A model generated the notes under the pieces. The model made no database searches. It was not told the DNA's origin and saw only the letters and a list, made by a program, of their open reading frames with translations. A stretch of DNA of 64,000 bases from Deltaproteobacteria bacterium (GTDB lineage: Bacteria > UBA10199 > JACPAL01 > JAHFST01). Within the stretch, counting starts at the first letter, position 1. Every line of letters starts with the position of its first letter. The translations under genes and the position numbers were made by a program. Location: positions 1 to 64,000 of the forward strand of contig JAHFST010000006.1 of assembly GCA_023265625.1 (NCBI GenBank), read 5' to 3'. Shown here in pieces: positions 25,351 through 49,045 of the stretch.

Positions 25351-25361
25351 TCAGGGCCTTT

Positions 25362-27193: not shown

Positions 27194-27232
27194 GCGATTC
27201 GCTCGGACTGGCAAAGCCAGATCCTCACTAAG

Positions 27233-27259: not shown

Positions 27260-27371
27260 TACCCCCATCTAAAATCCCCTACTGGATAATTGACTGAACA
27301 GGCTAAATCAAGTTGATGAAAGAATCAAATTTTCTTTATAGGGTTTGGCCAATCTGTGGTAAAAAAGGGCG

Positions 27372-28172: not shown

Positions 28173-28260
28173 TAATATTTAATATTAATTATATATAATT
28201 ATACTGTATTTATATTTTTTTTGTTTAATCTCTATTCAAGTTATGTTACAGATACCTTAG

Positions 28261-28473: not shown

Positions 28474-28521
28474 TCCTTTCTCTTGCAAATCAAGTGCCTC
28501 TGAAAGTAGTTTACCATCCCT

Positions 28522-29712: not shown

Positions 29713-30233
29713 TGAAGCAAGATAGAATTATCTTAACCGGGTTTATGGGGACGGGCAAAACCGCCGTGGGCCAGTCGTTGGCCAAGAAACTCTCGTTGCG
29801 TTTTGTGGATACCGATCAACTGATTGAAGAGGAGCATGGTCAGACGATTACGGAGATTTTTGAGAAAAAGGGCGAGGTGATTTTTCGGGAATATGAACGC
29901 AAGGTGGTGCAGAAAATCTTGGGTGAGAAGGGCATTGTGATGGCCACCGGGGGTGGGGCCGTCATTGATCCCGATAATTTAAAGGCCATGAAAGAACGGG
30001 GAGTGCTCATTGCCCTCTCGGCCTCTGCCGAGGTGATCTTGGAGCGGGTGAGTCGTTTGGGCAATCGTCCCTTGCTCAAGAGCAAGGATCAGATGGAGAC
30101 TATTCGGAATCTCTTGTCGCGCCGTTCCCCCTATTACCGACAGGCGGATCATATTATCGATACCACGGGCAAGACGGTGGAACAGACGGTGCAAGAATTG
30201 ACCAAACTTCTGCATGAAAAATATAAAGGTTAA
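29712..30233 (+). CDS. aroK: Shikimate kinase
   Basis: A 173-residue kinase. The P-loop reads LTGFMGTGKTAVGQSLAKKL. FVDTDQLIEEEHGQTI holds the shikimate-binding Asp, FREYERKV the Arg, and MATGGGAV the substrate loop. RPLL, the lid Arg and RSPYYRQAD complete the set. It phosphorylates shikimate at the 3-hydroxyl using ATP. The start overlaps the aroC stop and the end overlaps the aroB start by 20 bases. Confidence 0.96.
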   Translation: MKQDRIILTGFMGTGKTAVGQSLAKKLSLRFVDTDQLIEEEHGQTITEIFEKKGEVIFREYERKVVQKILGEKGIVMATGGGAVIDPDNLKAMKERGVLIALSASAEVILERVSRLGNRPLLKSKDQMETIRNLLSRRSPYYRQADHIIDTTGKTVEQTVQELTKLLHEKYKG

Positions 30234-31260: not shown

Positions 31261-31823
31261 ATGATTTTCAACCCCCGGAGAATATTCGGGAATTTTTAAA
31301 AAACCCCCATTTTGCGCGCTACTACCACACCTGGCAGGAGAATGAACGGTCGTTGGTGTTTATCCCTTTGGCGGAATTTTTTCGGGCCAAGGGATTGTTG
31401 GTCGAGGCCTTGGCGATTTGTAAAAAGGGGCTCGCCTTTTACCCGCAGTCCGTGACCGGCCGCCTGGCCTTGACTCGGATTTACCTCGATCTGGATCGAA
31501 AAGATGAGGCGACAAGTTTATTAGAGGGGGTTTTGCAAGAAGTTCCGGGGCAGGGAGAGGCGGTTGATCTCCTCAAAAAGATCCATCTTGTGAAACGTCT
31601 TGGTGGACAAGAAGCGGTACAGCCGTCTGAAGAGGCCCCGATCTCCTTGTCTACCTGGGATACGTGCACCATGGCGGAGATTTATGCGGGGCAGGGGGAG
31701 TATCGCCGGGCCCTCGTTATTTTGGACAAGATTATCGCGGCCGATGCTGGCAATGATCGTGCGCGTCACTTAAAAGAGGAAGTTCTCAAATGCAAATCCT
31801 CATCATCCACGGCCCAAACTTAA
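31257..31823 (+). CDS. TPR-repeat protein in the shikimate operon
   Basis: A 188-residue helical protein starting with GTG at 31257 (GTGA overlap with aroB). TPR-like units include LVEALAICKKGLAFYPQSV and YRRALVILDKIIAADAGND. No signal peptide is present, so it is cytoplasmic. Its partner is unknown. It overlaps aroQ by 34 bases. The TPR gene at 32235 has a similar arrangement, so both may belong to the same cell process rather than to aromatic synthesis. Confidence 0.8.
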   Translation: MNDFQPPENIREFLKNPHFARYYHTWQENERSLVFIPLAEFFRAKGLLVEALAICKKGLAFYPQSVTGRLALTRIYLDLDRKDEATSLLEGVLQEVPGQGEAVDLLKKIHLVKRLGGQEAVQPSEEAPISLSTWDTCTMAEIYAGQGEYRRALVILDKIIAADAGNDRARHLKEEVLKCKSSSSTAQT

Positions 31824-32242
31824 ATTTATTGGGCGCGCGCGAGCAGGGTATTTACGGCAAGGTGTCTCTTCAGGAGATTGAGCGGGACCTTGCGAAGCTG
31901 GCCAAGAAGGAACAGGTCACTTTGGAGTTCTATCAATCCAACCATGAAGGGGAGATTGTCAGTAAAATTCAGCAGGCGCAACGGGGTTGCGACGGGATTG
32001 TCATTAATCCGGCCGCCTACACCCACACCAGTGTGGCGATACGCGATGCGATCGCGGCGATCACTATTCCCGTGGTGGAGGTGCATCTTTCTAATATCCA
32101 TGCCCGTGAAGATTTTCGCAAGGAGTCGTATGTTTCTCCGGTCGCCCGAGGGGTGGTTTTTGGGTTCGGCCCCAGGAGTTATCAGTTGGGTTTGTTGGGG
32201 CTCATTAAAATTTTGAAGGAAGGTAACCATTCAAATGGATAA
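31790..32242 (+). CDS. aroQ: Type II 3-dehydroquinate dehydratase
   Basis: A 150-residue flavodoxin-like enzyme. The N-terminal ILIIHGPNLNLLGARE motif, the lid with catalytic Tyr in GIYGKVSL, INPAAYTHTSVAIRDA with the substrate-binding Asn and His, and EVHLSNIHAREDFRKES are all present. It dehydrates dehydroquinate to dehydroshikimate. The gene overlaps both TPR neighbours. Confidence 0.96.
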   Translation: MQILIIHGPNLNLLGAREQGIYGKVSLQEIERDLAKLAKKEQVTLEFYQSNHEGEIVSKIQQAQRGCDGIVINPAAYTHTSVAIRDAIAAITIPVVEVHLSNIHAREDFRKESYVSPVARGVVFGFGPRSYQLGLLGLIKILKEGNHSNG

Positions 32243-33233
32243 GGATAAGTTAATTTCCCAAGCTGAGAAGTTTGTCCAGGAGGGAAAACTCGACAAGGCC
32301 ATTAAGGAATATGAAAAGGTGGTGGCGGGTGATTCCCACGACACCCGGACCAAACTCAAGTTGGCCGACCTTTTTTCCCGGCAAAAGCAGACTCCAAAGG
32401 CGGTTGCCGTCTATCGCGAGGTGGGCGAGCAATATATGCAGGACAATTTTAGCCTCAAGGCGATTGCCGTCTATAAGACGATTTTAAAGATGAGCCCGAC
32501 CTTGATCGATATTAACGAAAAGTTGGGAGATCTGTACCGGCAGATCGGGCTGACGGCGGATGCGATCAACCAGTACTACATTGTGGCCGGTTCTTACGAC
32601 AATAAGGGCCTGACCCGTGAGTCGATGGAGATTCGCCAAAAGATCGTGGAATTGGATCCGTCCAATACCACCGGTCGTATCCGCTTGGCCGAGCTGATGC
32701 AGGCTGAGGGAAAGACCGATGATTCTTATCGGGAATATGAGCGAGTGGCCGAGTTTATGAAGAACAAAAAAGATCGCGACGGCCTGGCCGAGGTTTATGA
32801 AAAAATGCTGCATTACCGGCCCGAGAACAAAAAAATGTTGGACGAGTTGTGCAAGATCTATTTTGCCAAACGGGATTTTAAAAAGGTGTTGAAGAAGATT
32901 GAGTCCTCCCCCGTGGCCCTCAAGGATGATTTGGAGATAGCCCTGTTGTGGGCCGAGGCCTTGTTGGAGGACCGGCAGATTGACATGGCCCGGAAAAAAT
33001 TCCGGGTGGTTTTTTCCAACGCTGTGGAGGCTAAAAAGACGGAGTTGGTCGCCATGATCAAGAGCCGTCTGCTCCAGGAATTTAGCGATGACGAAGATTA
33101 TCTCCGTGAGATAGAGGACATCAGCCGCCAGTCCCCCCAACCCCCTCCCACCGTAGCACCCCATCATCGTCAGGATTTTGAAAAGACGGAGATGGTGGAT
33201 CTGGATAGTTTTGATTTCACGCCAAAGAAGTAG
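32235..33233 (+). CDS. TPR-repeat protein
   Basis: A 332-residue cytoplasmic helical protein of stacked TPR units (GKLDKAIKEYEKVVAGD, KAVAVYREVGEQYM, KAIAVYKTILKMSPT, and others) with a charged, Pro-rich C-terminal tail ending in EMVDLDSFDFTPKK. The ATG overlaps the aroQ stop. Proteins of this layout act as scaffolds, but no specific partner is evident. It ends the shikimate operon. Confidence 0.85.
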   Translation: MDKDKLISQAEKFVQEGKLDKAIKEYEKVVAGDSHDTRTKLKLADLFSRQKQTPKAVAVYREVGEQYMQDNFSLKAIAVYKTILKMSPTLIDINEKLGDLYRQIGLTADAINQYYIVAGSYDNKGLTRESMEIRQKIVELDPSNTTGRIRLAELMQAEGKTDDSYREYERVAEFMKNKKDRDGLAEVYEKMLHYRPENKKMLDELCKIYFAKRDFKKVLKKIESSPVALKDDLEIALLWAEALLEDRQIDMARKKFRVVFSNAVEAKKTELVAMIKSRLLQEFSDDEDYLREIEDISRQSPQPPPTVAPHHRQDFEKTEMVDLDSFDFTPKK

Positions 33234-33257
33234 GGGACGAATACAAGATTCTTCTCT

Positions 33258-33375
33258 ACGGAATGCTTACTACCACAGGTGCTTTCTCAGGCCGCGTTCT
33301 CACAAACACAAACGATGGGATGCCCTCGTGTACCGTTGAGGGGGTGATGCTTGGGAGCAAGAGGACTTGCACCGG
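33258..33375 (-). repeat. Partial duplicate of the 3' end of the lipoprotein gene at 35662
   Basis: This 118-base stretch is about 85% identical by eye to 35663-35781, which encodes the last 40 or so residues of the lipoprotein. A shared core block includes CTCACAAACACAAACGATGG-like sequence and GAGGACTTGCACCGG. It has no start, so it is a dead copy 2.4 kb from the intact gene. Confidence 0.8.
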
Positions 33376-33381
33376 AAAATG

Positions 33382-33436
33382 GGGGACGTTGTTGACCAGA
33401 TGAACTAACAAAGTTCACTCAATCAACAACGTCCCC
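33382..33436. repeat. Long hairpin element with 14-base arms
   Basis: GGGGACGTTGTTGA and TCAACAACGTCCCC are perfect inverted arms around a 27-base centre that contains a second hairpin (TGAAC...GTTCA). No coding gene is in it. It resembles palindromes mobilised by REP-associated (IS200-like) transposases or a small MITE, and it follows directly on the partial duplication. Confidence 0.6.
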
Positions 33437-33491
33437 TATTTTACAGCTAAGTCGATTTCGAAAATGCGCAACTCTTTTTTTATAGTGCCGA

Positions 33492-35111
33492 ATGATAGGC
33501 ATGAGACTCTTGCTGGCAGAACCCTTAAGATTGTTGGTGCAAAGTGGGGGCGTGGTCCGTGAAGCCCTGGTATCAGGGGAAGAAGGTCCGCAGGTTCAGG
33601 CAAAAATTCAAGCGGGTTTGGCCCCCTATCGCTCCGCATTGGAGGGGTTGAAAGTTCCCGTTTGGACCTCCCTTCAGTCTGATGCGGCCCTCTTGCGCCG
33701 GCTGGCCGCCGGAGAGGGTGTTGATGGGGGAAGTTTGTCGGGATTGGTGGCCCGTTCCATTGCGTTAGAACACGCTGTTATTGAGTCGGAAGGGTTGGAT
33801 TGCATGGATGCCGGTTCTCTTGGGGAAAGCCTGTTTCGTCTCAGCGTAGGGATCAGGACTAAGCTACAACAGCAGGCCTTGATTGTGAGCTCTGCGGTGT
33901 CGGCTTATACGGTTTTGACACCGGCGGTGGTGGATTGGATGACCGGTTTGGCGCGGTGGCCCGGCGGGGCTCAAATAGGAGTGACCGTTGGAGCCATGGT
34001 TTTGTTCAGTTTTGCGGTGGTGTACGGTCTCCTCCCGGCCGGCTGGCGGTTGCAGCGGAGTGAAAAATTCTGGCCTCGTTTGTTGGGCAAGCTGGCGACG
34101 ATTGGCTTGGAGGCCTTGGCCTCTATCGGGCTCTTGGAGGGGCTGGGGTTGGTGTATGGTTGGAATCCATGGAAAACCCTTCAGACCGGCGCCTGGATGG
34201 GGGCCACCCAGGGGTTGCCTCTGAGCACGGTGAGTCGAAAATGGGGGAATCATCCCTTACTGGCCACCGCCATGAGGCAGGGAGCGATGATGGCCATCCA
34301 GACGAATGCCGCTGTGATCAACGCCCTGGCGGCGGAGCATGGCGACAACTTGTCTTCCCAAGATGTGATAAAGATTGTCATGGTCAGTGCGGCGCTCGAT
34401 TACCTTTTTTATCTCCTTCCCTCTTTTGGTGAAGGGCATATGTCCACGCGGCAGCGACGGCCGGAGAGCGAGTGGAGTCTCCTGAGTCCTACGGAAAAAT
34501 CGCTCCTATTGTTGGATGATCAGCGCCTTTGGCCCTACCGGTATGGACATACGCTGGTGAAGGTCTCGTTGCCCGAGGGGGTTACGCTCGCCAACCTGAC
34601 TCGGTTGATGAAAAAGGAGAGGTGTTTTGAGGAGTGGGGTTTTTTCACGATGGGAGAATTGCGCAGACTTTTGCATAGTGATGGTCCAGTGGCGGTTCGG
34701 ACCCGGTTGTCAAGACAAACTCAAAATGTCATCGTTGGATGGATGCATTTTGACGAATTGGGCCGGCTCTTGCCCGATTTTCAAAAGCAACAGTATATTG
34801 CCGAGCTTGCCTTGGCCAGCGGGAGCAGGATCCATTTTTTCCATAGCACGGGGCACGTCCATACGGGAGAGGAGGGTTGGTCGGATTTAGGGAAGCGGGA
34901 AAATCCCCTTGCCACGATTTCATATCGGCAGCGGGTGGCGTTTCATTTGGCCCCGACTCATGAAGAGGCTGTCGTCATGACGGATCGATGTTCCGGCACT
35001 CTTGACCTTCCGGCTGCCCTTAGCGGAGGACAGACCGGTTGGGTGCGACAGGCGTTGAAGGCGGTGGCCGAGTCAGGCGAAATTTTTGTGATCGAAGGGG
35101 ATGAAAGTTAA
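33492..35111 (+). CDS. Membrane protein of unknown function
   Basis: 539 residues, not recognised. The first 115 residues are helical and soluble. Residues of about 130-320 hold four to six hydrophobic segments (for example IGVTVGAMVLFSFAVVYGLL and ATIGLEALASIGLLEGLGLV). The last 200 or so residues are soluble, with HIGH-like HFFHSTGHVHTG and MHFDELGRLLPDF segments. An ATG at 33501 is an alternative start. It stands alone between the shikimate operon and a hydrolase relic. Confidence 0.65.
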   Translation: MIGMRLLLAEPLRLLVQSGGVVREALVSGEEGPQVQAKIQAGLAPYRSALEGLKVPVWTSLQSDAALLRRLAAGEGVDGGSLSGLVARSIALEHAVIESEGLDCMDAGSLGESLFRLSVGIRTKLQQQALIVSSAVSAYTVLTPAVVDWMTGLARWPGGAQIGVTVGAMVLFSFAVVYGLLPAGWRLQRSEKFWPRLLGKLATIGLEALASIGLLEGLGLVYGWNPWKTLQTGAWMGATQGLPLSTVSRKWGNHPLLATAMRQGAMMAIQTNAAVINALAAEHGDNLSSQDVIKIVMVSAALDYLFYLLPSFGEGHMSTRQRRPESEWSLLSPTEKSLLLLDDQRLWPYRYGHTLVKVSLPEGVTLANLTRLMKKERCFEEWGFFTMGELRRLLHSDGPVAVRTRLSRQTQNVIVGWMHFDELGRLLPDFQKQQYIAELALASGSRIHFFHSTGHVHTGEEGWSDLGKRENPLATISYRQRVAFHLAPTHEEAVVMTDRCSGTLDLPAALSGGQTGWVRQALKAVAESGEIFVIEGDES

Positions 35112-35600
35112 TTAGGTCTCTAGCCAGGGGATATCCACCCGCAATTCTTTGGAGCGTCGGTTCAATTCTGAAACTCGTTCATTGAGATAGCGGCGGAAGA
35201 GGTCACGACTGGTGATGAAGAGGGGTTCGCCATTGGCCACTACCTGTTGGCCATCGACGTAGACATCGGTGGCCGTCTGTCGCGTCCGTACGATCCGGCC
35301 GATGATATCTCGGTTGGACTCAAGATCAATCATCGCTGACCAATCAAGCTGGTTCCAAAAGACCAGATCGGCCCGTTGTCCCACCGCAATCTGACCCAAT
35401 TCTTTTTCCATGCCCAGCCCGTGCATGCCGCCAGTGGTGGCCATGGTGAGAATATCGAGCGGGGAGAGGGCCGCCGAGTTTTTGTTGGTCACGACAAAGT
35501 TCGCCGTCGGATCGGGTAAATTTTTTAGGTAGGGAAACTGACCCGTTGCCAGGGCGGCTTCAGTATAAGGTCTGGCGATGTTAGGTAATGATGATAAATA
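35112..35600 (-). pseudogene. C-terminal remnant of an ATZ/TRZ-type amidohydrolase
   Basis: The frame encodes only the end of a hydrolase: ALSPLDILTMATTGGMHGLGM, then LGQIAVGQRADLVFWNQLDW, then VYVDGQQVVANGEP. All the metal-binding segments of the TIM barrel are missing. The open frame reaches up to 35933, but that extension is the antisense-frame shadow of the lipoprotein gene and has no family match. It is related to the amidohydrolase at 58373. It is not expected to be functional. Confidence 0.75.
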
Positions 35601-35661
35601 CACCCGACACTTCTCGAATGATTCGGGCAAAAGGTTGCCTATAATTTTTTGCGTTCCTGTT

Positions 35662-36714
35662 TTACGGAATATCCACCACCACCGGTGCTTGCTCAGGCCG
35701 CATCCTGACAAACACAAACGATGGGATGCCCTCGTGCACCGTCGAGGGGGCAATGCCTGGGAGCAGGAGGACTTGCACCGGGGCGAAGGCGGGGAAGTTG
35801 AGGTCTGAGGTGCCGCAGCCGGCGGGTAATTCATTGGCCTCGGTGTCGCGGGCGTCTTGCAATAGGGTGTACTGATCTGGCGTGGGGGAATAGAAACCAA
35901 AGGCCCCGTCGGTTGGGTCTTTGGTGCTGCCATTAAAAATATCGGCGGCGGTCAGGACGGCTTGGTCGTAGGCGATCAGGCTGGATTTTTTTACGTTGGT
36001 GCGTTGTGCGGCGCCCTCATACTCATCATGGGTCGGGTCATCGGGTGTTAAGGGGGAAAATTGGTAGATCATTCCATTGTTAGCCTCGATCACCTCGTTG
36101 TAATAGGAAACGGATGGATTCAGGGCGTAAAGATCCGGGTTGGCCAAAAATAGGCCGGGATTTTCCTGCTCATTAATCAGATCAATGCGATTGCGGATCA
36201 CGGAACCCAGGGCATCGCCGGTGACACTGACGCTCGTTAATTTGACCTGTCCCTCCGCATCGAGGCTGGCCTCGGCGTTGAGTTCTCCTTGGGCCTCGGC
36301 GAACAAGATCTGGATCAGACGTTGGGGGGGGATGGTTATCTCCGTGGTGGTGAATTCTTTGCCGTCCACCTGAGCGGTGACGTAACCGATGCCCTCTTGT
36401 TTGGGAACGATCTGGGCCTGTTTGGCATCGGTGAAGGTTGTTTGACCCTGCGGAACCATGATGGAAAATAGGTCGGTGTCCTCACTGACGAAGTCTAATA
36501 ATTTGAGATCAACATTGGCGGTGACCAGGTCTGTATCGCTTCTAGTCCCACCCAAGGCCAAGGCGAGTGTGTTTGTCACTGATTTTTCTTGCTGGGTCGC
36601 TGCAGGCTGGGCGCTGCTGCCAGTGAATGGGATGAGTTTTTTGAAAAAATTGCAACTCGCCAGAAGCATGACGCCCATGCACAGGATCAAGATATAGAAG
36701 CATTTTCTTTTCAT
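35662..36714 (-). CDS. Lipoprotein of unknown function
   Basis: A 350-residue protein with a lipoprotein signal (MKRKCFYILILCMGVMLLASC, broken at the Cys; lipobox LASC). The mature part has no recognised domain. It is acidic, with strands such as ITIPPQRLIQILFAEAQGEL and a conserved end FVFVRMRPEQAPVVVDIP. The base composition is like the housekeeping genes, unlike the AT-rich genes upstream. The last part was partially duplicated at 33258. It is probably anchored in the inner or outer membrane. Confidence 0.7.
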   Translation of the reverse strand: MKRKCFYILILCMGVMLLASCNFFKKLIPFTGSSAQPAATQQEKSVTNTLALALGGTRSDTDLVTANVDLKLLDFVSEDTDLFSIMVPQGQTTFTDAKQAQIVPKQEGIGYVTAQVDGKEFTTTEITIPPQRLIQILFAEAQGELNAEASLDAEGQVKLTSVSVTGDALGSVIRNRIDLINEQENPGLFLANPDLYALNPSVSYYNEVIEANNGMIYQFSPLTPDDPTHDEYEGAAQRTNVKKSSLIAYDQAVLTAADIFNGSTKDPTDGAFGFYSPTPDQYTLLQDARDTEANELPAGCGTSDLNFPAFAPVQVLLLPGIAPSTVHEGIPSFVFVRMRPEQAPVVVDIP

Positions 36715-36817: not shown

Positions 36818-37759
36818 TTAAGGCTTTTTAAAGTTGTTCAAATAATTCTTATATTCTGTATTATCAGGCTCAATAGATAAGGCTTTCTGAAGCCATCCAT
36901 AGGCTTTATCTTGTTCCCCGTTGCTAAGCGCAATTTTACTAATATTGAAATACGCGTCACTATTTTCCGGATCTTTCTCGATAACATCCTGAGATATCTG
37001 TAGGGCTTTATCAAAATGTTTGCTTTCAATGTAAGCTTCCGCCAAATTACTTTGAATTACGCTTTTATCAGGATTTTTCTTGGCCATTTCTTCCCATGTT
37101 TCGATAGCTTTATCGACTCTATTTGTTTTGAGATAGACTGTAGCTAGGCCGTTTTGAGCATCGATATTAGTATGATCATTTGAGATAATTTCATTATAGT
37201 ATTGCTCGGCAAATAACTTTTCTGCCGTAGTCCCCTCTGTTCCTCTTTCAAAGGTTAACATTTCTGCAACATTAAACTTTGCATCCGCATTATTGGGGTC
37301 TTGCAGTAGAATTTCGTTAAACTTCAAAAGAGCGTCGTTAGATTTTCCTTTTAGGCGATCAATAATGCCCAAACCTAATTTGGCCGCTTCGCTATTAGGC
37401 TGATTTTGAAGCAAGTCTGTGTAATAGGCCTCAGCGGAAGCTAAATCCCCAGATTCTATTGAACTCATTCCAACGTCTTTAGTCCCAGGAAAATTGGAAG
37501 TTTCTACGTCTCCCATATCCTGAGGCCTGTTCTTATCATCGTCTAAATTATCATCCTCATCATCCGTAGGGGAGATTTTTTTCAAAATGGTGTCCTTTTG
37601 CTCTTTTCTTTTCGCGTGATTTGATAAGGAGCGCGGAGGGCCTTTTTTTTCAAGTGCGTTATTGACAGGGGTATTTTCTTTTGTTTGGCGGGTGAGCATT
37701 ACAACCAAATTGGCTATTAGTAGCAGAATAAGGATAAATAATAATTTATTTTTTTTCAT
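36818..37759 (-). CDS. Membrane-anchored TPR protein of the peptide-export operon
   Basis: A 313-residue protein with an N-terminal anchor (LLFILILLLIANLVVML), an acidic linker (DDEDDNLDDDKN) and about five TPR units (ASAEAYYTDLLQNQPNSEAA, DKAIETWEEMAKKNPDKS, DKALQISQDVIEKDPENS). It is 3 bases from the small membrane protein gene and downstream of the ABC exporter, so it is one operon. A scaffold role for export is inferred from position. The sequence is AT-rich like the RiPP genes. Confidence 0.78.
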   Translation of the reverse strand: MKKNKLLFILILLLIANLVVMLTRQTKENTPVNNALEKKGPPRSLSNHAKRKEQKDTILKKISPTDDEDDNLDDDKNRPQDMGDVETSNFPGTKDVGMSSIESGDLASAEAYYTDLLQNQPNSEAAKLGLGIIDRLKGKSNDALLKFNEILLQDPNNADAKFNVAEMLTFERGTEGTTAEKLFAEQYYNEIISNDHTNIDAQNGLATVYLKTNRVDKAIETWEEMAKKNPDKSVIQSNLAEAYIESKHFDKALQISQDVIEKDPENSDAYFNISKIALSNGEQDKAYGWLQKALSIEPDNTEYKNYLNNFKKP

Positions 37760-37762
37760 ACA

Positions 37763-38017
37763 TCAGTTGCTCGATGAAGTTTGTTCAAATAAGATATCCT
37801 TAATCGGTATCGAAATTGACTGTCCTTCCTTGTCCGTGATTTTTATGGGAAGTTTCAAAAGTTGAAATCCCACAAGAAACAACAATAGGACAGCTGTGAT
37901 CATGGATGCTGAAATCAAAGTTATTATTCTTTCCAGCTGAATATGGCTTATTGTGTAAATCCAAGATTCGAATTTTTTCTGAAGATTATGCATAAAGGTA
38001 AAGATTTGATGGGTCAT
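37763..38017 (-). CDS. Small single-pass membrane protein between exporter and TPR genes
   Basis: An 84-residue protein with one hydrophobic helix (IITLISASMITAVLLLFLVG), a charged N-terminus and a C-terminal periplasmic-looking tail (ITDKEGQSISIPIKDILFEQ). The gene overlaps the 3' end of the ABC exporter by 32 bases; an ATG at 37993 would shorten the overlap. No family is recognised. Its fixed place between exporter and TPR gene suggests it belongs to the export machine. Confidence 0.6.
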   Translation of the reverse strand: MTHQIFTFMHNLQKKFESWIYTISHIQLERIITLISASMITAVLLLFLVGFQLLKLPIKITDKEGQSISIPIKDILFEQTSSSN

Positions 38018-40139
38018 TGGAGGTTTTATCTAGATCACTTTCAATCGCTTGAATCAATTGTTCAGCCATTTTCATTGATTGATGAGCTGTCGCGGCACAA
38101 CTATTAAATTTGTTCACGTGATGAATCCCGTGTGTTTGAATATATTTATTAATAATTAGATTAATTCTTTTCTCTACTTGAATAGAACCGGATAGACTCG
38201 TATCCGGTAAGCACAAAAGAACCATCCGATCCCTATATATGGTTGAAAAGTCCATTGCTCTTAAATAATGGTTGATGTGCTGATGCAAGGATCTAACGAA
38301 ATTATTTGAAGATGATTCTTCATTTTCAACCCTAAATCCAATAAGAGAAAGGGCTGTGTGGTAACGTTTGAACCTAGAAAATTCAGTTTCAAGGCGTTGT
38401 TGGAACTCCCCAAAGCCCGTTGTCTGCAATTGATAGAGATTAAAGAAGGCTCCCTTTCTGGCCATTAGATCAAAAAAATTCCCTTGCTCTTGTATCATGC
38501 CTTCCTTCAGAACAACAATGTTATCAAATCCTTTAAGATTGTTTAAGCGGTGAGTTGCTGTCACTATGGTCATATTTTTTTTGCATTTCTGAAGTGCATT
38601 AAAAATAAGATATTCACTTTCAGGGTCTAGGGCGCTTGATACTTCATCAAGGAGAAGAATTTTCGGTTTAAGAATCAAAGCGCGCGCGAGCGCAATTCGT
38701 TGTCTTTGACCACCTGAAAGATTCGTCCCTAATTCATCTACTTGAAAATCATATTGTTGAGGCAATTGATTCATGAAGTCATAAGCATCCGCCAATTGGC
38801 ATGCTTGGGTGATTTCACTATCCTCTGATTGGCCACTTCCAAAACATATATTCTCCCTAAGTGTTCTTTTAAATAGGGCGATCTCTTGAGGGACATAGGC
38901 CATAAAATTTCTTTCAAAGCCATGGGTAGGATCGCGTTTATTGCCATTCAAGAAAATGCCGCCGTTATCGGGTTGATAAAGGCCTGCCAAGATTTTGATT
39001 AAAGTAGATTTTCCAGAGCCACTAGCTCCCACGATAGCTACAAGAGTTTTATCTTCAATCTTCAGACTGATATCTTTTAAGATACATTGGTTACTATAGC
39101 TAAATGAAATATTGCTGAAAACAAAATTAGCTTCCGTGTTTAAGGGGGGGGTGTTTTTTTCGGGCTGATTTTGAGCGGAATGGTCAGTGGACGGGGAAAG
39201 AATAATTTCATTAAGTCGGTCTGCAGACACTTGTGCAATTCGCAGTGAAGAGTAAAGACGTGTAAATTCTCGAATAGGATTCCAAAATTGGGCTAAATAG
39301 GCGGTTAAGGCCATCATATGGCCCACTGTCATTTTTCCTGTGATAACTTCCCAGCCAATAAAGCCCGTGACAAGCGTGCTCCATATTTTTACCGTAAAAC
39401 TGTGACTGAGAACATTAACAAGCTCGATGATTTTTTTCTGAAGATTAATAGAATTTCTAGTCTTAAAACATCTTAATACTTTTTGTTCTTCCTGTTTTTC
39501 ACGACCGAAACATTTAATTAGATGGAAGTTTGCTAGCCTTTCGTAAAGGGAACTATATAAGTTTGCCTGGGTTTGTTGTTCATGCTGCAATAATTTCTGA
39601 GAAGTATTCGAAAAAAAATGAGCTTCCAGCCAATTTAAAGGAACGGAAAGGATGGCAAGAAAAGTGACAAGAGGATTGATATGAAATGCTATTGATAATA
39701 GGAAAAATAATGTTACAAAATTGATGACCAAAACCTGAGGAGTGCTTACAATTATACTAGAAATAATTTCCGTATCATCTGTAGCTCTAATGATAAGATC
39801 GCTACGATTTAAGTGATCAAATTTTTTGGCTGACAATGCGCCTATCTTTTCAATAAAAATCTTGCTGATAATGCGAGTTGTCGAGACTTTAGTATACTCG
39901 TGCAGATAATCCGTCAGAGAGCTTAGGAGAGTTTGTAAGATATAAATACCAAAACCCGCAAGTAGAATCTTGATAAATAATGGAAAGTTACGATTGGGAT
40001 AGGCATAATCAAAAATTATAATCGCAAACAGGGGTGCCAAAAGTCCTAAAAAATTTGAAAAAAGGTCAGTAATAATTTCCGCAATGATGATGAGTCGATA
40101 AGGTTTTAAATAGTGAAAAAAATTGGTTACTTTCGACAT
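37986..40139 (-). CDS. ABC exporter (fused permease-ATPase) with a degenerate GGDEF-like C-terminal domain
   Basis: 717 residues. Residues 1-320 form a six-helix exporter membrane domain. The ATPase follows, with Walker A GASGSGKST, signature NLSGGQRQR and Walker B ILLLDEVSSALD. There is no N-terminal C39 peptidase. After about residue 590 comes a domain that aligns by eye with GGDEF domains: EFQQRLETEFSRFKRYHTAL (helix and first strand), then LRAMDFSTIYRDRMVLLCLP where the GGDEF motif should be, then the closing helices. The catalytic motif is replaced by YRDRM, so cyclase activity is not expected. It is divergent from the RiPP precursor and probably exports the product. Confidence 0.88.
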   Translation of the reverse strand: MSKVTNFFHYLKPYRLIIIAEIITDLFSNFLGLLAPLFAIIIFDYAYPNRNFPLFIKILLAGFGIYILQTLLSSLTDYLHEYTKVSTTRIISKIFIEKIGALSAKKFDHLNRSDLIIRATDDTEIISSIIVSTPQVLVINFVTLFFLLSIAFHINPLVTFLAILSVPLNWLEAHFFSNTSQKLLQHEQQTQANLYSSLYERLANFHLIKCFGREKQEEQKVLRCFKTRNSINLQKKIIELVNVLSHSFTVKIWSTLVTGFIGWEVITGKMTVGHMMALTAYLAQFWNPIREFTRLYSSLRIAQVSADRLNEIILSPSTDHSAQNQPEKNTPPLNTEANFVFSNISFSYSNQCILKDISLKIEDKTLVAIVGASGSGKSTLIKILAGLYQPDNGGIFLNGNKRDPTHGFERNFMAYVPQEIALFKRTLRENICFGSGQSEDSEITQACQLADAYDFMNQLPQQYDFQVDELGTNLSGGQRQRIALARALILKPKILLLDEVSSALDPESEYLIFNALQKCKKNMTIVTATHRLNNLKGFDNIVVLKEGMIQEQGNFFDLMARKGAFFNLYQLQTTGFGEFQQRLETEFSRFKRYHTALSLIGFRVENEESSSNNFVRSLHQHINHYLRAMDFSTIYRDRMVLLCLPDTSLSGSIQVEKRINLIINKYIQTHGIHHVNKFNSCAATAHQSMKMAEQLIQAIESDLDKTSNDPSNLYLYA

Positions 40140-40357
40140 AGAATCGATTTCCTGTTCATGGGCAGCTATCGGGGATGTTTATTTAGGGATATTCCTGAAG
40201 TTTTATAGGTGTGACCCCTCATATTTTAGCAAACCAATAATTTCTCTAATAGTTATAATATTGCCATAAATAACATTATATATTTTATCATTTAGGTAAT
40301 AAAAAATATATAAAATTAAATACCGTTTATTTTTAATTATTTATAAGAAAGTATTTC

Positions 40358-40386
40358 TTGATCATTTTTTCAATTTTGTGTACTAT
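40358..40386 (+). promoter_or_regulatory. Promoter of the RiPP precursor operon
   Basis: TTGATC and TACTAT are separated by exactly 17 bases, matching a sigma-70 pattern. The -10 box lies about 40 bases before the precursor ATG, which has an AAGGAG ribosome site. The surrounding 290 bases up to the divergent exporter gene are very AT-rich and contain no gene. Confidence 0.5.
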
Positions 40387-40426
40387 GTCCATAAAATAGA
40401 TAAGTGGTTATAAAAAAGGAGAAAAT

Positions 40427-40642
40427 ATGCCGCGTCAGATTGAGAAGAAAATTAAGCTAGGTAAGACCGACAGTATTAAGGCGGCCTGTCAGGTACGTAG
40501 TCTTGCCATCCAGACAGGCAAGACGGACACCATCAAGGCAGCCTGTCAGGTACGTAGTCCTGCCATCCAGACAGGCAAGACGGACACCATCAAGGCAGCC
40601 TGTCAGCAACATAGTCCTGCTGCGAATCCAAAAAATAAATAA
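40427..40642 (+). CDS. Multi-core RiPP precursor peptide with three tandem 19-residue units
   Basis: A 71-residue, very basic peptide. After an 11-residue start (MPRQIEKKIKL) it consists of three units of the form GKTD(S/T)IKAACQ followed by VRS(L/P)AIQT in units 1 and 2 and QHSPAANP in unit 3, then a short KNK end. Each unit has a single Cys in KAACQ plus Thr and Ser, the residues used by YcaO enzymes. A strong AAGGAG site precedes the ATG. The next genes encode a HEXXH modification protein and a YcaO protein. There is no signal peptide and no recognised leader family (no Nif11, no GG motif). This identity is inferred from repeats plus context. Confidence 0.7.
   Translation: MPRQIEKKIKLGKTDSIKAACQVRSLAIQTGKTDTIKAACQVRSPAIQTGKTDTIKAACQQHSPAANPKNK
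40460..40630 (+). repeat. Three 57-base tandem repeats within the precursor gene
   Basis: The units start at 40460, 40517 and 40574, with a period of 57 bases (19 codons). The first parts of units 2 and 3 are almost identical at the DNA level, which indicates recent duplication, while unit 1 differs at several silent positions. Confidence 0.9.
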
Positions 40643-40683
40643 AGGTCGCGGTTCTTCTGCTATCTGGATTTAAGTGGATCTCT

Positions 40684-42006
40684 ATGATTAAAATACGGCC
40701 TTCTGCTTCAACCTCGTTGGTGCGGAGTCAGCAACTGTCACGGCAGGTGATTAGTGACATTAAAACGCTTTTGGTGTTTTACAAAAATGAACACAATAGA
40801 TCTTTATCAAGTGAAGAAGTGCAAACGATTGCTGGCCTGCTAAAAACCCTCTCCTATTTCTCTGCAAAGCTAAAAGAGGCCTCTCATGACCAAAGATGGC
40901 AAATTGTAAGCCCGGAACTTTATCAATGGTATTTCAAGGCGTTGGGAATTTTAAAAGCAAAAGAATGGAATCTATTTAAAGAATGTATCTCAGATCTTTC
41001 TCAGCAGATCCTCCCTCGATTATTAAGCCTGGGTTTTCAAATAAATGAAATCCCCATATTGCTCGATTCAGAATACAAAATACATTTTCCGCAAGTGAGA
41101 AAAATATATTGTTTCCCAAAGGTGAATGGAAAGCTTGTCAAATCAAGACTTGAAAATAAGACAATGCTGCTAGAAAATAACCAACATCGCGTTAAGATTA
41201 ATATTAAGCGGCTACTTGAGAATTTAGAAGATAGCCAATGGTCACAGCGCCCTAGGATTGCCGGAACTAGTATTTATTATAAACAAAGTGGGGATGAGCT
41301 GGGGCAAGTCATAAAAACCATTGCCAGTGAAACTAGCATGGCTAAGGAAGAAGCGTCTGAACTTTGCAATGTTTCATGGCATGAATTTTTTAATGATAAG
41401 CTGTATATAAACTCGAGGAGAAAAATTGATCGGGCGATGAGATTGATAAAAAATATTTCTCCGACATTTTATGAGGAAGTTGTTTCAGTGACTCATGCAT
41501 TTTCCCTTCTTAAAAATACATGCCTGATTGGGGCTACGGTTATTTCATATTATGGAGTTTGTTTTTTAAACCCACGTTCCGATTGGAATGTGATTACATT
41601 CGCCGATCATATCGTCCATGAAGCAGCTCACCAGATACTTTATGCTTGGCATGAATTAAGCCCGCTTTTAGTCAATTGCAACGAGATGGGCTATCCTTCA
41701 CCCATTCGGGATGACCCACGCCCTCTCTATGGCTCCTTTCATGCGACGTTTGTTTTTTTACGGCTGGTCTTATTTTTTGATCAATTAGTCCGTAAAACTA
41801 AATCTAGGGAAGCTGAATTTCGCTTTCATCGTCATTTACAGGGTTTGTACACGGGTATGGATGTTTTAGAAAAGGCGGCTAAATTTACGCCTAAAGGCAA
41901 AGAATTATTTCAGGCGATGAAATTTGAAACAGCAAGATTCAAAAAAAGAATACCACGGCCAGATCCGAAAGCTTATAATCGTTATCTACGTGATTACTCA
42001 AACTAA
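40684..42006 (+). CDS. HEXXH-motif RiPP peptide-modification protein
   Basis: 440 residues. The C-terminal part contains FADHIVHEAAHQILY with HEAAH at residues 312-316. A DDPRPLYGSFHATFVFLRLVL block follows with His at about 353, as in the HEXXH-domain family linked to peptide natural products (TIGR04267-like; NCBI also names members aKG-HExxH-type peptide beta-hydroxylase). The two His plus the distal His could bind iron or zinc. The N-terminal 200 residues are helical and unassigned. The gene starts 41 bases after the precursor and overlaps YcaO. The likely role is hydroxylation or another change on the precursor, which is inference. Confidence 0.75.
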   Translation: MIKIRPSASTSLVRSQQLSRQVISDIKTLLVFYKNEHNRSLSSEEVQTIAGLLKTLSYFSAKLKEASHDQRWQIVSPELYQWYFKALGILKAKEWNLFKECISDLSQQILPRLLSLGFQINEIPILLDSEYKIHFPQVRKIYCFPKVNGKLVKSRLENKTMLLENNQHRVKINIKRLLENLEDSQWSQRPRIAGTSIYYKQSGDELGQVIKTIASETSMAKEEASELCNVSWHEFFNDKLYINSRRKIDRAMRLIKNISPTFYEEVVSVTHAFSLLKNTCLIGATVISYYGVCFLNPRSDWNVITFADHIVHEAAHQILYAWHELSPLLVNCNEMGYPSPIRDDPRPLYGSFHATFVFLRLVLFFDQLVRKTKSREAEFRFHRHLQGLYTGMDVLEKAAKFTPKGKELFQAMKFETARFKKRIPRPDPKAYNRYLRDYSN

Positions 42007-43249
42007 CGCCATAGATTACACAAGAAAGAATTTTCCCAGTGCTTTCTTAGATTCAAAGATTTCACATTTTCAGCGTATCCCAAGTAAGATTATTTCTAAA
42101 GAATTCTCCCTTTACATGGGGTTAATGTCGATTGTCCACCAGCAAGAAAATATTTTAGGCCATGCCCTGACTCAAAGATTCGAAGCTTTTGGAATGGGAC
42201 AAAGCATTGAGGAGGCTCAATTTAAATGTTTAATGGAAATGCTAGAAAAATTCTCAATTACTTCTACGGATACGATAAAGCGACATCTCGTACGCCGAAG
42301 TATGTCCCATCCACATTTGGATTGGAGCTTATTTGCTCCCTATCAATCATTAGTGGTCAAGCAAATGAAGCAAGATAAAGCCCATTACCCCTGTTATCAT
42401 GTTCTTTGTGAGGGAATGATTTCAGGCAAAAAATACACTGTTCCTGCAGAGTGTGTGTTTCCAAGGTGGAACAGCCAAATAGCGTGTGAAAGGCATATAG
42501 ATGAATATGACGGGAGCGGAATAGCTGCAAGCCTATCAAAAAATAGAACCTATGCTTTGGCGCACGGTATAAGCGAGGTGCTAGAGAGGGATGCTCTCAT
42601 GCTTTCCTGGAGACTTAGAGGTTGGCCGTGTCACATTGTTTCTGAATCATTGATCGATCAAAAAATTAAGGATTATATTCAGCTAAAACACCTGAAAGTT
42701 GAATTGTATGACGTGGGTGACCCTCATCTCATTCCGGTTATAATTTCTGTTCTTGGGAAGAAGGATGAGAGTGAAGTAACAATAGGATCCAGCGCATCGT
42801 TTGATCTACATCAGGCTTCTGATAAGGCAGTCACTGAGGCTCTGATGCTAAGGGATGCTGGTAGATATTGGTCTAGAAGAGGGGTAGGTGATAAGCCAAA
42901 GCTCATAGCTGATAGCTACGGTCATATTGCTTATGGATTCGAACATGGTTCTCAAATTGTTAATTGGTATCGGAAACAAGCATTACTTAGTAGAACAATA
43001 TCTAGGAAGAGAAAGAGTTTGAGTAAGCTATTATTGGGGTGTCATCAAGTATTTGGTTATGAACCGCTCTTTATTGACGTGACAGAGCCTCAATTAAAAA
43101 AAGATGGGTATTTTGTTTGTCGTACTCTTATCCCCAACGCTTATCGTAAAGAATGGCGTCATCAAAAGCCTTTCTTGGGTGGGGTGCGATTGCTACGTTT
43201 AACAAAAAAAGGTTTGGGCTTAAATAAAAAACCTCACCCGTTTGGATAA
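41990..43249 (+). CDS. YcaO-domain peptide-modifying enzyme
   Basis: From a GTG at 41990 the protein has about 419 residues; an ATG at 41924 would overlap the previous gene by 83 bases. The YcaO ATP-binding signatures are present: SIEEAQFKCLMEMLEKFS and the hallmark HGISEVLERDALMLSW. The end LNKKPHPFG carries the Pro-rich C-terminus seen in azoline-forming members. YcaO enzymes activate backbone amides with ATP to make azolines, amidines or thioamides at Cys, Ser or Thr. No E1-like or ThiF partner gene is in the cluster, so it either acts alone or uses a new partner. Confidence 0.88.
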   Translation: MITQTNAIDYTRKNFPSAFLDSKISHFQRIPSKIISKEFSLYMGLMSIVHQQENILGHALTQRFEAFGMGQSIEEAQFKCLMEMLEKFSITSTDTIKRHLVRRSMSHPHLDWSLFAPYQSLVVKQMKQDKAHYPCYHVLCEGMISGKKYTVPAECVFPRWNSQIACERHIDEYDGSGIAASLSKNRTYALAHGISEVLERDALMLSWRLRGWPCHIVSESLIDQKIKDYIQLKHLKVELYDVGDPHLIPVIISVLGKKDESEVTIGSSASFDLHQASDKAVTEALMLRDAGRYWSRRGVGDKPKLIADSYGHIAYGFEHGSQIVNWYRKQALLSRTISRKRKSLSKLLLGCHQVFGYEPLFIDVTEPQLKKDGYFVCRTLIPNAYRKEWRHQKPFLGGVRLLRLTKKGLGLNKKPHPFG

Positions 43250-43254
43250 ATAAT

Positions 43255-44142
43255 ATGTCTTCTTTTAAATTAATTCCTCCTGTTGGTATGTCTGACTTAC
43301 TGGGTACTGGCGTGTGTAAGCCCAATCTGCCGATTCCTTCTACTGCTCATCACGAAGAAAAGCCTCCTTTAATGGACAATTTTCATGGAACACAATTTAA
43401 ACAGGATCTGGATACTGGTAGAGGAGTTGGTATGAAGAGATCAATTATAATAAGTGACCCAGCTCAATATTCTAATAGAGTTGTTTTGGCTGAGATTCAG
43501 CTTAAAAAAAATGCCAATATCAATGCCAAGGATTGGAAATTATTCATGGAAGCTAAAAGAGGTGAAGTTGCCCAAAGCTTGAATCAAGAAGGGGTTGAAG
43601 GGGAACATTATTTTATCTTGGAAGAAGATGGTAAGCCAGATTCTATCCTTATTTTCATGGAAGCTGATGATTTACAGCAATCCGCTAGAATTGCAGCACA
43701 ATCAAATTTGGGTGTTGATAAATTTCACCGTCAATTTAAGCAATCTTGGGATTCAAAACAAAAACACGAGCTTCTGGGAGTTGTGGAATTAGGGTTAGCT
43801 ATGGAAAAAAAACGGAGAGCAAAATACTTTTGTCAAATCGTTGAATTTGATATCGATGAGAGTCAGTTATCAGCTCTTAGGCGAGATCTTCAAGATAGCA
43901 ATAGCTTCTCATTGGAAGAGTTTCGTAAAGGTCGAATCATAAGTGCTCATTTTTTTCTTCGCCAAGGAGGGGGAATGACTAGATTGATTCAAATCGCTAA
44001 GATTGAAGGCGATTCTAAAAGTTCATTGGGAAAATTGAGTCCTTTAGATCTAACTCAAAATATGAACAATAAAGATTTATTCATAAGATCACCTTTGTTG
44101 GCAACCTTTAAGCCTTTTATTTCTTTTTGCGCGTCTTCTTAG
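43255..44142 (+). CDS. DUF6176-like protein of the RiPP operon
   Basis: 295 residues without a signal peptide. Residues of about 75-170 match the DUF6176 pattern: VVLAEIQLKK, then EVAQSLNQEGVEGEHYFIL, then ILIFMEADDL, then DKFHRQFKQSWD. A second, weaker copy may lie at about 195-265 (FCQIVEFDIDES...). The N-terminal 60 residues are Pro-rich. The function of DUF6176 is not known to me. The gene is 5 bases after YcaO and followed by a terminator, so it is the last gene of the modification operon and might be a leader-binding or immunity protein. Confidence 0.6.
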   Translation: MSSFKLIPPVGMSDLLGTGVCKPNLPIPSTAHHEEKPPLMDNFHGTQFKQDLDTGRGVGMKRSIIISDPAQYSNRVVLAEIQLKKNANINAKDWKLFMEAKRGEVAQSLNQEGVEGEHYFILEEDGKPDSILIFMEADDLQQSARIAAQSNLGVDKFHRQFKQSWDSKQKHELLGVVELGLAMEKKRRAKYFCQIVEFDIDESQLSALRRDLQDSNSFSLEEFRKGRIISAHFFLRQGGGMTRLIQIAKIEGDSKSSLGKLSPLDLTQNMNNKDLFIRSPLLATFKPFISFCASS

Positions 44143-44147
44143 TAAAA

Positions 44148-44179
44148 AAATGCCGCTCTCATTTCTGAGAGCGGCATTT
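44148..44179. terminator. Strong bidirectional terminator after the RiPP operon
   Basis: AAATGCCGCTCTCA and TGAGAGCGGCATTT form a perfect 14-base stem with a 4-base loop. A run of A precedes it on the plus strand, so T follows it on the minus strand. It separates the RiPP operon from the converging RCC1 gene. Confidence 0.85.
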
Positions 44180-44204: not shown

Positions 44205-45431
44205 TTAATCACATGGAATGTTAATCTTTACGGGAACGCTGGATGCTGAAATATCCTTTGCCAATTCTCCATTAGATCCTGAACCCCAGCAGAACACGTC
44301 TCCATTTTTCGTGATAGCACATGAGTGTGTCTGCCCAGAGGCGATAGAGATAGCGGTATCTTCCAGAGCAACGGGTCTGGATGGACGAGGCACAAAGCCA
44401 GAATTATAGCTCAATTTTCCAAACCCCAATTGACCATATTGAGAACTGCCCCAACAGAAAACATCTCCATTGGATATTAACCCGCAACTCGTATCTTGCC
44501 CAACCGAAATGTCCTTAAACTTCAGCTTTTTTTCTTCAACAAGCTTGGGCGAAGCTTCCACCGGCTTAAAAGAGTTGTTACCAACCTGTCCTAAATCATT
44601 CCTTCCCCAACAGATGTCCTTCCCATCCTCTCTCAATGCGCAGGTTGTTTGATGGTAAGACGACACTTTAACAATGCTATTCAACGGGAGTGTTACTCCA
44701 TTATTGGAAGCGATGTTTTTATTCGGTACTCCTAATTGGCCAAAATTATTATACCCCCAGCACATCACATGGCCAGACTGATTTACAATACATGTATGAT
44801 TCGTACCGCCAGTCGCTGTGGCAATCCCATCTTTTGCAAATTTTTGCTCGTTAGAGATAGCGACAGGATTGCTTGTAGCAGGTTTGACCCAATTATACAA
44901 TCCGTTCGATGATGTTCCCGCACACAATAAATTTCCATTAGCGGCATTGTTTCCATCGAATGAGTAGGCACACGACTGATTTCCAGCAGCCATCAAGCCG
45001 TCTACGTGGATCAAGTCTGATATCAACAACGCAGATTCTGGTTTTGGAATGCCATAAGCAATAATATTTCCATCACCTAGTTGTCCGAAGTTGTTGTCTC
45101 CCCAGCAAGTAACTTCACCTTGAGCAGAAAGGGCACAAGCATGTAAATGTCCGGCTTGGATATCCACAACGTCAGACAAACCAGATATTTGGAGAGGTTT
45201 CTCAGACTTTACTACGCTAATATCTTGTCCCAATTGTCCATATTGGTTGCTTCCCCAACACCAAACTGTCCCTTTTGTGGTATCCGTATCCACTATCGTG
45301 CATGTAAAAGAGTTCCCTGCTGCAATGCCACTGGCCTGACAAATATTTTGCTTATTATCTGTAGCCCATACGGTTGTTATCATAACAAACTGACATAAAA
45401 TCAATATCTTACCAACTGTAGATTTATTCAT
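44205..45431 (-). CDS. Secreted RCC1-repeat (beta-propeller) protein
   Basis: The ATG at 45431 follows AGGGGG and starts a signal peptide (STVGKILILCQFVMITTVWA). The mature 380 residues hold about seven RCC1-type units, each with a C-W-G-x-N-x-x-G-Q-L-G motif (WCWGSNQYGQLG, TCWGDNNFGQLG, MCWGYNNFGQLG, ICWGRNDLGQVG, FCWGSSQYGQLG, FCWGSGSNGEL). Cys residues recur in each blade and could form disulfides. It is AT-rich like the RiPP genes. A link to the RiPP cluster is only positional. Confidence 0.85.
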   Translation of the reverse strand: MNKSTVGKILILCQFVMITTVWATDNKQNICQASGIAAGNSFTCTIVDTDTTKGTVWCWGSNQYGQLGQDISVVKSEKPLQISGLSDVVDIQAGHLHACALSAQGEVTCWGDNNFGQLGDGNIIAYGIPKPESALLISDLIHVDGLMAAGNQSCAYSFDGNNAANGNLLCAGTSSNGLYNWVKPATSNPVAISNEQKFAKDGIATATGGTNHTCIVNQSGHVMCWGYNNFGQLGVPNKNIASNNGVTLPLNSIVKVSSYHQTTCALREDGKDICWGRNDLGQVGNNSFKPVEASPKLVEEKKLKFKDISVGQDTSCGLISNGDVFCWGSSQYGQLGFGKLSYNSGFVPRPSRPVALEDTAISIASGQTHSCAITKNGDVFCWGSGSNGELAKDISASSVPVKINIPCD

Positions 45432-45587
45432 TCTCATCCCCCTGTGATGTAAATGGTTATTGTTTTTCAATAGTCAAAACTATTGATGTCTTCCCATTAT
45501 CGACACTGAGATGGGTAGGAGTTGCTTAGCCGAGAAGATTTTTCTATACCGCTTCATAAATGAGTTTGATATGGGGTTGGGTTTCTT

Positions 45588-48112: not shown

Positions 48113-49045
48113 ATGGGCGATGACCTGTCACCGGTAACCAAGGCAAGAATTCAAGAGACCTGTCAAACGATGCGGGATCTAGGGCTGACGATCGATCGAT
48201 CGCAAGAGTTTGACAACGGTCCAATCAAGGGTACGGATCCGGATTATCTCGACTACTGTCACGATGAATTGGTCCGGTCAGCCCAGTCGCAGCAGGAAAA
48301 GTGGCCTCATCAAGAACCCCAGATTTGGTCCCCGGCGATGATGACCACTGCGGCCAATTTTGTGAAAGACCGCGGTTTTGAATTACATATTATTCCGGCC
48401 CTCAATGAAAATGGGCAAGGTGGGCAGCCCCTATCCAGTTGTGGCCACGCCATCAACATGGGTCTTGCCGCCATACGTATTTATGAAACTCAAAGAAATT
48501 TTGAGCGGGGGTTGAGACACGAAGCCGGACACATCGCGGACAATGAGTCCTTGGCAACCAAGTTTCCTGACTTGGCACCACTGTTATCATGCGCCCCGAT
48601 GGATCCAGCAGGGACAAGGACCATCATCAAAAAACTTTTGGAGATCTTTATGGAGGCATTACCGGCAAAAGAAGCCGCCGAATTCAAGGGACTGGTACGT
48701 GATGTGATAGGGGATCTTGAGATCGTCCCTTTGGAAAGTTTATCTGGCATTGCCTCCATACTCTTCGAGGCGCTTCGTTACGGAGAGGAGGCCTATGTCC
48801 AAGAAATAAAGGATCACGATTTTTGGCCTGAGTATCACCAATTCAAAAAAGGTGGAGAAAATCTCAAAAAAAACCATCCCCTTCTCAAGGAACTTCAAAT
48901 CGCCCGGATGCAGGAAGCTGGAAATTGGGCACAATTCAAAAAGGAACCTTCCTTTGATCCCAAAAGTGTTCAGGATATCAATAAAAAAGCGGTGAGATTT
49001 TTTCGCATGGCCATCAAGGCTTCGCATCGTTTCTTACAACAATGA
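48113..49045 (+). CDS. Putative zinc metallopeptidase-like protein with a HEAGH motif
   Basis: 310 residues, soluble, no signal peptide. GLRHEAGHIADNESLA (residues about 140-155) matches the HExxH pattern of gluzincin or minimal zinc peptidases, and an acidic residue follows as possible third ligand. The rest is helical, with a charged C-terminus, and no family is recognised. Upstream lies a 16-base palindrome. Peptidase activity is inferred from the motif alone. Confidence 0.6.
   Translation: MGDDLSPVTKARIQETCQTMRDLGLTIDRSQEFDNGPIKGTDPDYLDYCHDELVRSAQSQQEKWPHQEPQIWSPAMMTTAANFVKDRGFELHIIPALNENGQGGQPLSSCGHAINMGLAAIRIYETQRNFERGLRHEAGHIADNESLATKFPDLAPLLSCAPMDPAGTRTIIKKLLEIFMEALPAKEAAEFKGLVRDVIGDLEIVPLESLSGIASILFEALRYGEEAYVQEIKDHDFWPEYHQFKKGGENLKKNHPLLKELQIARMQEAGNWAQFKKEPSFDPKSVQDINKKAVRFFRMAIKASHRFLQQ

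Follow-up and report, generated by a model that had tools for sequence, protein, structure and literature searches.

A candidate RiPP biosynthetic locus combining a YcaO, an αKG-HExxH-type protein and a tandem-repeat peptide

Introduction

The YcaO and αKG-HExxH families have both yielded much new peptide chemistry. What could be made by a locus in which genes of both families overlap, follow the gene of a short repeat peptide and stand divergent to an ABC exporter? Such a locus occurs in the window analyzed here (a stretch of 64,000 nucleotides), which is carried by a 164-kb contig (C25) of a 2.93-Mb genome with 37 contigs and 96% completeness. Its individual parts are known; what sets it apart is the YcaO-HExxH combination, its recurrence and the repeats. 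The first-pass annotation did not recognize this combination as a described RiPP class, and a literature search whose scope excluded most subscription papers also found no description of the pair or of a YcaO and an αKG-HExxH enzyme acting together.

The locus is probably a RiPP biosynthetic cluster, and we infer that the enzymes act on the repeat peptide, with the chemistry predicted below, and that the product is exported. The peptide would serve as a multi-core precursor. The YcaO would use ATP to activate a backbone amide, the most likely outcome being a thiazoline at the single Cys of each repeat (KAAC), the αKG-HExxH enzyme would β-hydroxylate one residue per repeat (Asp, Gln or other), and the product would presumably leave through the divergent ABC exporter and its two partners, the small membrane protein and the TPR protein.

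Organization of the locus

All seven ORFs of the first-pass annotation were recovered at the same coordinates, and the ORF list and base composition agree with two divergent AT-rich operons separated by an intergenic region with no notable ORF. The features are as follows.

36818..37759, minus strand: TPR protein with a hydrophobic anchor at its N-terminus, encoded by the final gene of the export operon (TPR_19, E 1.1e-24; N-terminus MKKNKLLFILILLLIANLVVML)
37763..38017, minus strand: small membrane protein, 84 aa, an ORF with a hydrophobic segment that overlaps the exporter gene (no family above cut-off)
37986..40139, minus strand: ABC exporter (TMD-NBD), no C39 peptidase (ABC_tran E 3.2e-32, ABC_membrane E 3.7e-28)
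40140..40426, no strand: divergent intergenic region, 25% G+C, no ORF of note; presumed promoters of both operons
40427..40642, plus strand: candidate precursor peptide, 71 aa, MPRQIEKKIKL + 3 x (GKTD[ST]IKAACQ...); first gene of the plus-strand operon
40460..40516, plus strand: repeat 1, GKTDSIKAACQVRSLAIQT
40517..40573, plus strand: repeat 2, GKTDTIKAACQVRSPAIQT
40574..40630, plus strand: repeat 3, GKTDTIKAACQQHSPAANP; second half diverged
40684..42006, plus strand: αKG-HExxH-type peptide β-hydroxylase family protein, 440 aa (TIGR04267, 92.4 bits vs cut-off 40)
41990..43249, plus strand: YcaO, most likely azoline-type, ending KKPHPFG and overlapping the HExxH gene (PF02624, 80.8 bits vs 25.7)
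43255..44142, plus strand: 295-aa DUF6176-like protein extended at both termini (PF19673, 39.6 bits vs cut-off 27, residues 75-170)
44148..44179, no strand: intrinsic terminator with a 14-pair stem at the end of the plus-strand operon, common to the convergent RCC1 gene

Family models agreed with the first reading of the plus-strand operon as encoding a YcaO (PF02624), a DUF6176-like protein (PF19673 above cut-off) and a HEXXH modification protein, the last belonging to the αKG-dependent hydroxylase family and not to the peptidases (TIGR04267 above cut-off). The start of the YcaO is uncertain (TTG 41924, GTG 41990 or later, up to ATG 42116). Consensus promoter matches in 40140..40426 were no more frequent than in shuffled sequences, and the single-sequence AlphaFold model of the DUF6176-like protein was too poor for use (pLDDT 31).

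The AT-rich island (window 36818-44142) has about 37% G+C, compared with 54-58% in the genes on either side. All of its genes lie at 35-40% G+C apart from that of the small peptide (50%). Third-position G+C, precursor aside, is 28-39% in the island and 60-71% in the flanks. This composition suggests horizontal acquisition. The same third-position departure, together with the occurrence of the HExxH family in this genome alone among 46 of the phylum (the others had no close relative), might also point to a non-functional remnant, degenerate or of horizontal origin, or to an assembly chimera. We regard this as highly improbable: all ORFs are intact, the catalytic residues are conserved, the terminator is present and identical junctions occur in a contig of another MAG, though possibly from the same site or sample.

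That contig, JAHFGK010000070.1 (L004) from a separate assembly, contains the same 10.2 kb including both island junctions, with two mismatches, both outside the locus, and is filed under Candidatus Omnitrophota MAG nzgw313. An island copy in a second phylum, as the label would imply, was rejected. JAHFGK010000070.1 is probably misbinned, because all of its 10,188 bases correspond to the source contig at 99.98% and window positions 20000-34000 are absent from that MAG.

Several neighbors of the island were also noted. The convergent gene at 44205-45470 (minus strand), likewise AT-rich (43% G+C) and set apart from the island by the bidirectional terminator, faces the DUF6176 gene and encodes an RCC1-repeat protein with an apparent signal peptide. 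At 35112-36714 (minus strand), the overlap of two frames, one lipoprotein-like (35662-36714) and one resembling an amidohydrolase C-terminus (35112-35933), suggests a gene with a frameshift, and a 119-bp stretch within this region repeats 33257-33375 at 87%. A protein with a TIR domain (TIR_2, 45.6 bits) is encoded at 23774-25000 (minus strand), and a HEAGH-motif protein with no Pfam match at 48113-49045 (plus strand), 4 kb downstream of the island.

The repeat peptide as candidate precursor

The candidate precursor gene has a strong Shine-Dalgarno sequence (AAGGAG before ATG). At 40478-40620 TRF detected 2.5 tandem copies of a 57-bp unit with 94% match; the window has one other tandem array of 25-120 bp, a weaker one with a 27-bp unit. 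The three units have 19 residues each, and the block GKTD[ST]IKAACQ, including the Cys of KAAC, is common to all three. Between repeats 1 and 2 there are seven base differences, five of them at third positions, which amount to four silent codon changes and two amino-acid changes (S/T and L/P); when seven changes were placed at random, amino-acid changes were as few in 1% of trials. The short repeat peptide first read in this operon is therefore supported by its coordinates, TRF, the Shine-Dalgarno sequence and the codon pattern. Conservation of its frame, on which the first reading also depended, received a divided answer: the codon pattern between the gene's own repeats supports the frame, whereas no orthologous precursor was found across species. 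A dispersed repeat element instead of a gene was rejected, as the genome contains no further copy of the repeat DNA.

Could the enzymes modify another small protein, the repeat ORF being unrelated or regulatory? We consider this quite unlikely. It would fit the lack of sequence similarity to the peptides of related loci, the openness of the other reading frames of the repeat region and the folding of its RNA, somewhat better than that of shuffles (z -2.5), to which Rfam gave no match of note as a known RNA. Against it stand the strong Shine-Dalgarno sequence, the position as first gene of the operon, the synonymous bias and the presence of a repeat peptide near a related HExxH gene in G533 (see below).

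The YcaO and its chemistry

Sequence comparisons indicate that the locus YcaO is most likely azoline-type and of the TOMM D protein branch, its exact placement being unsure. The SagD model (TIGR03604) matches it end to end at 96 bits, under the cut-off of 219, and methanogen-type and general YcaO models give 35 bits or less, lower than the SagD model. Two trees contained supported TfuA-type and S12-type clades, both of which exclude the locus protein. In the tree that also includes the G477 protein, it is joined by a 95/93 branch to TOMM YcaOs of Streptomyces, Rhizobium jaguaris, Hymenobacter and Alkalihalophilus, though long branches in these trees leave the exact placement unsure. A grouping with non-RiPP YcaO proteins, which the first-pass annotation had named as the outcome that would speak against it, was thus not what the trees gave: the protein lies outside the S12-type and TfuA-type clades and with discrete TOMM YcaOs.

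E105, E108, E218, E221, R222, E305 and PHP are invariant in alignment with TOMM YcaOs, and in this family E105, E108, E218, E221 and E305 have an ATP/Mg role. The protein is highly divergent, with about 20% identity, a long branch and EK in place of one conserved ER, and neither the 385 sampled genomes (at E 1e-15) nor IMG/VR contained a close relative. It ends in NKKPHPFG, similar to the PHPFP/PHPFS termini of TOMM proteins on the 95/93 branch; set against the PxPxP pattern, PHPFG keeps two prolines and has G in last place, as do the ends of G477 (PPHPLG) and of the G533 fragment (PWPLG). The best matches of a profile built from the locus YcaO and its relatives were MusD, LynD and TruD, which are cyanobactin heterocyclases. 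A Pro-rich/PxPxP C-terminus marks azoline-forming YcaOs (PMC8442711, PMC12670281).

There is a sizable chance, short of even, that within a RiPP cluster this YcaO makes another amide-derived modification (amidine, imidazoline or thioamide) or acts at a site made by the HExxH enzyme, for example using a β-hydroxyl nucleophile. Divergent YcaOs with a PxPxP end are known to perform other chemistry, the daptide YcaOs forming imidazolines (PMC12670281) and streptamidine AmiD an amidine (PMC8442711), and the small peptides beside the G223 and G477 pairs have no Cys. On the other hand, the nearest branches and profile matches are azoline formers, Cys is present in all three repeats and TfuA is missing among the operon proteins. 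Azoline formation remains our preferred reading, and the Cys need not be the YcaO target, because the G223 and G477 small peptides are without it and a site of the G533 repeats varies (C/N/H).

The likeness to TOMM/linear azol(in)e peptide systems and to the cyanobactin heterocyclases (LynD, TruD, MusD) lies in the YcaO branch, the ATP residues, the PHPF-type C-terminus and the nearest solved structures by profile. The locus differs from TOMM/LAP systems in having no E1/ocin-ThiF protein, no SagB dehydrogenase in the operons, a C-terminal G for P and an αKG-HExxH partner. Thiovarsolins (YcaO-TfuA) share the pairing of a YcaO with a precursor of imperfect tandem repeats (PMC6511847), but the present locus has no TfuA and its YcaO is outside the TfuA clade (99/99); also, unlike here, no αKG-HExxH enzyme is among the genes sufficient for thiovarsolins. 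Bottromycin, other stand-alone YcaOs and streptamidine resemble the locus in having a YcaO without a recognizable E1-like partner (PMC8442711, PMC6511847), whereas their precursors and partner enzymes are different.

Several partners whose absence the first-pass annotation noted were not recognized here either. Family models found no E1-like/ocin-ThiF protein for leader binding among the genes of the locus, and nowhere in the genome did a TOMM leader-binding protein exceed the cut-off (TIGR03882, best 27.5 bits vs 36.9; sub-cut-off matches of this model were also seen in control genomes). No SagB-type dehydrogenase and no TfuA were present among the operon proteins, and the former result agrees with the first reading of a locus without a dehydrogenase. 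Neither a leader peptidase nor an RRE was recognized. The streptamidine protein AmiB is a cryptic YcaO partner that was detected solely by structure prediction (PMC8442711), and by analogy the locus may have a cryptic AmiB-like partner.

The HExxH protein

The 440-aa protein is a member of the αKG-HExxH peptide β-hydroxylase family, and hydroxylase activity is predicted for it. It matches ChlH in PDB (8s5f, E 1e-8), and H312, E313 and H316 (HExxH), R346 (RP arginine) and H353 (FHA histidine) are invariant in alignment with its relatives. Pfam had no match for the N-terminal region of about 240 residues, which is common to the closest HExxH relatives at lower identity. A profile search of PDB with the relatives recognized the catalytic part and nothing else, and the single-sequence AlphaFold model was too poor for use (pLDDT 48).

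Activity of this family on RiPP precursors is documented (PMC12636437, PMC13060819). ChlH is a characterized β-hydroxylase, and ChlH-type enzymes hydroxylate His and Asp (PMC12636437); PflC/PosC couple Gln hydroxylation to oxidative backbone cleavage (PMC12636437), and PesO hydroxylates Pro (PMC13060819). ChlH, PflC/PosC, PesO and BpmH belong to the same family as the locus protein, which has the conserved HExxH, Arg and His. The described enzymes have radical SAM, MNIO/nitroreductase or Asn-synthetase-like partners (PMC12636437, PMC13060819), whereas here the partner is a YcaO, and the NHLP leader of PflA has no counterpart in the locus peptide.

The HExxH enzyme might also release cores by oxidative backbone cutting between the repeats, as PflC/PosC do, which would explain the missing leader peptidase gene. 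PflC/PosC both hydroxylate and cleave, PflC can act as a peptidase without leader and its cluster has no protease gene (PMC12636437), and the catalytic residues are conserved in the locus protein. Such release is unlikely, as the ARMD signal needed by PflC/PosC is missing from the locus peptide and other characterized family members are reported as hydroxylating alone.

The export operon

The initial description of the export operon (ABC exporter, small membrane protein, TPR protein and no C39 peptidase) is borne out by family models, the ORF list and the alignment to TIGR03796, a model of C39-bearing NHLP exporters, which begins at model position 152 of 710; a C39 domain was not found on the exporter, whose ORF starts at the TMD. 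The proposed exporter-GGDEF fusion is weak. The C-terminal tail of about 140 aa is a degenerate GGDEF-like sequence whose PF00990 match (16.8 bits, E 0.006) falls short of the 23.8 cut-off, and the motif is absent, YRDRMV being read by eye at the expected place; thus, a genuine GGDEF signaling domain is unsupported. By adjacency, the divergent exporter and its two partners presumably export the product.

Related loci

HExxH domains were present in 8 of the 385 genomes of a domain-wide sample, and 195 genomes from the same phylum as G073 (regarded as Myxococcota on the basis of gene content), searched with a profile, gave three informative loci. The co-occurrence of HExxH and YcaO genes, proposed earlier as a check, was found: the pair is complete in two other genomes, G477 (Myxococcota) and the unrelated G223, and partial in a second myxobacterium, G533, which has a YcaO C-terminal fragment. 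The paired genes are adjacent, overlapping or abutting in G223 and G477. In G223 (L026 16051-18049), the HExxH gene overlaps a divergent YcaO gene, and a 40-aa peptide with a GGAGG site is encoded just upstream. In G477 (L074 6155-8415), a small ORF with a weak ribosome site precedes HExxH and then YcaO, the YcaO matching the locus protein with BLASTP E 1e-7 (small set). Both upstream ORFs are short, non-repeat and without Cys.

In G533, where contig ends truncate the locus, contig 832 (L070) starts with the C-terminal end of a YcaO-like protein (…HRTSPWPLG), whose length does not allow a significant match alone (E 7.5), followed by an HExxH protein 29% identical to that of the locus over its length. 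Contig 599 encodes a peptide with three 24-aa repeats, a PhyH-family oxygenase and a second HExxH protein, 38% identical to the locus protein in the catalytic part and two genes from the peptide. Related loci lacking any repeat peptide would have weakened the first interpretation, and this repeat peptide near a close HExxH relative sustains it. Repeats 1 and 2 of G533 differ by five synonymous changes and one amino-acid change (P 0.0003), the changed site reading C, N or H across the three units. This peptide (L071 2102-2353, minus strand), with the oxygenase and αKG-HExxH genes, is a candidate RiPP cluster of its own.

The locus HExxH protein and the two of G533, its closest relatives, form a clade (98/97). 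Repeat peptide, HExxH and YcaO thus occur together around this clade independently of the window, which argues against chance proximity. The YcaO-paired HExxH genes are not one clade overall in the tree, and the pairing may therefore have arisen repeatedly. The peptides of G223, G477 and G533 have no significant similarity to the locus peptide, its repeat units show no significant resemblance to those of G533 (P 0.18), and an ABC/TPR export operon was not seen in the related loci. HExxH relatives were not found in IMG/VR, and no annotated YcaO was located near those on the plasmids inspected (Staphylococcus, Pantoea, Xenorhabdus) or on phage SPbetaL1.

A bolder reading, which we hold to be speculative and improbable, is that the YcaO/αKG-HExxH pair represents a RiPP class that is undescribed and widely scattered, across at least three lineages. 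Here, a YcaO with a PxPxG end would work without an E1-like partner, both enzymes would receive the precursor from the HExxH N-terminal region of about 240 aa, and in multi-repeat members the HExxH enzyme would free the cores by oxidative cleavage. The recurrent pair with naturally repeating precursors provides a compact, testable system for asking how a YcaO functions when the leader-binding partner typical of YcaOs is missing and whether an HExxH enzyme will hydroxylate or cut, and it extends RiPP mining into poorly sampled lineages.

Other αKG-HExxH genes were observed in different settings. Pantoea (L017) and Staphylococcus warneri (L016) plasmids have such a gene with an adjacent or nearby MFS transporter gene and no other annotated RiPP enzyme, and the SPbeta-type Bacillus phage SPbetaL1 (L075) encodes a homologue at 5034-5912, with short ORFs before it. 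On contig 10 of G223 (L026 7349-11690, L027 8756-14221), further YcaO (312 aa) and HExxH genes, one of each, occur near genes for oligopeptide-binding proteins, sensor kinases and MFS proteins, as if there were two peptide-signaling-like modules of common layout.
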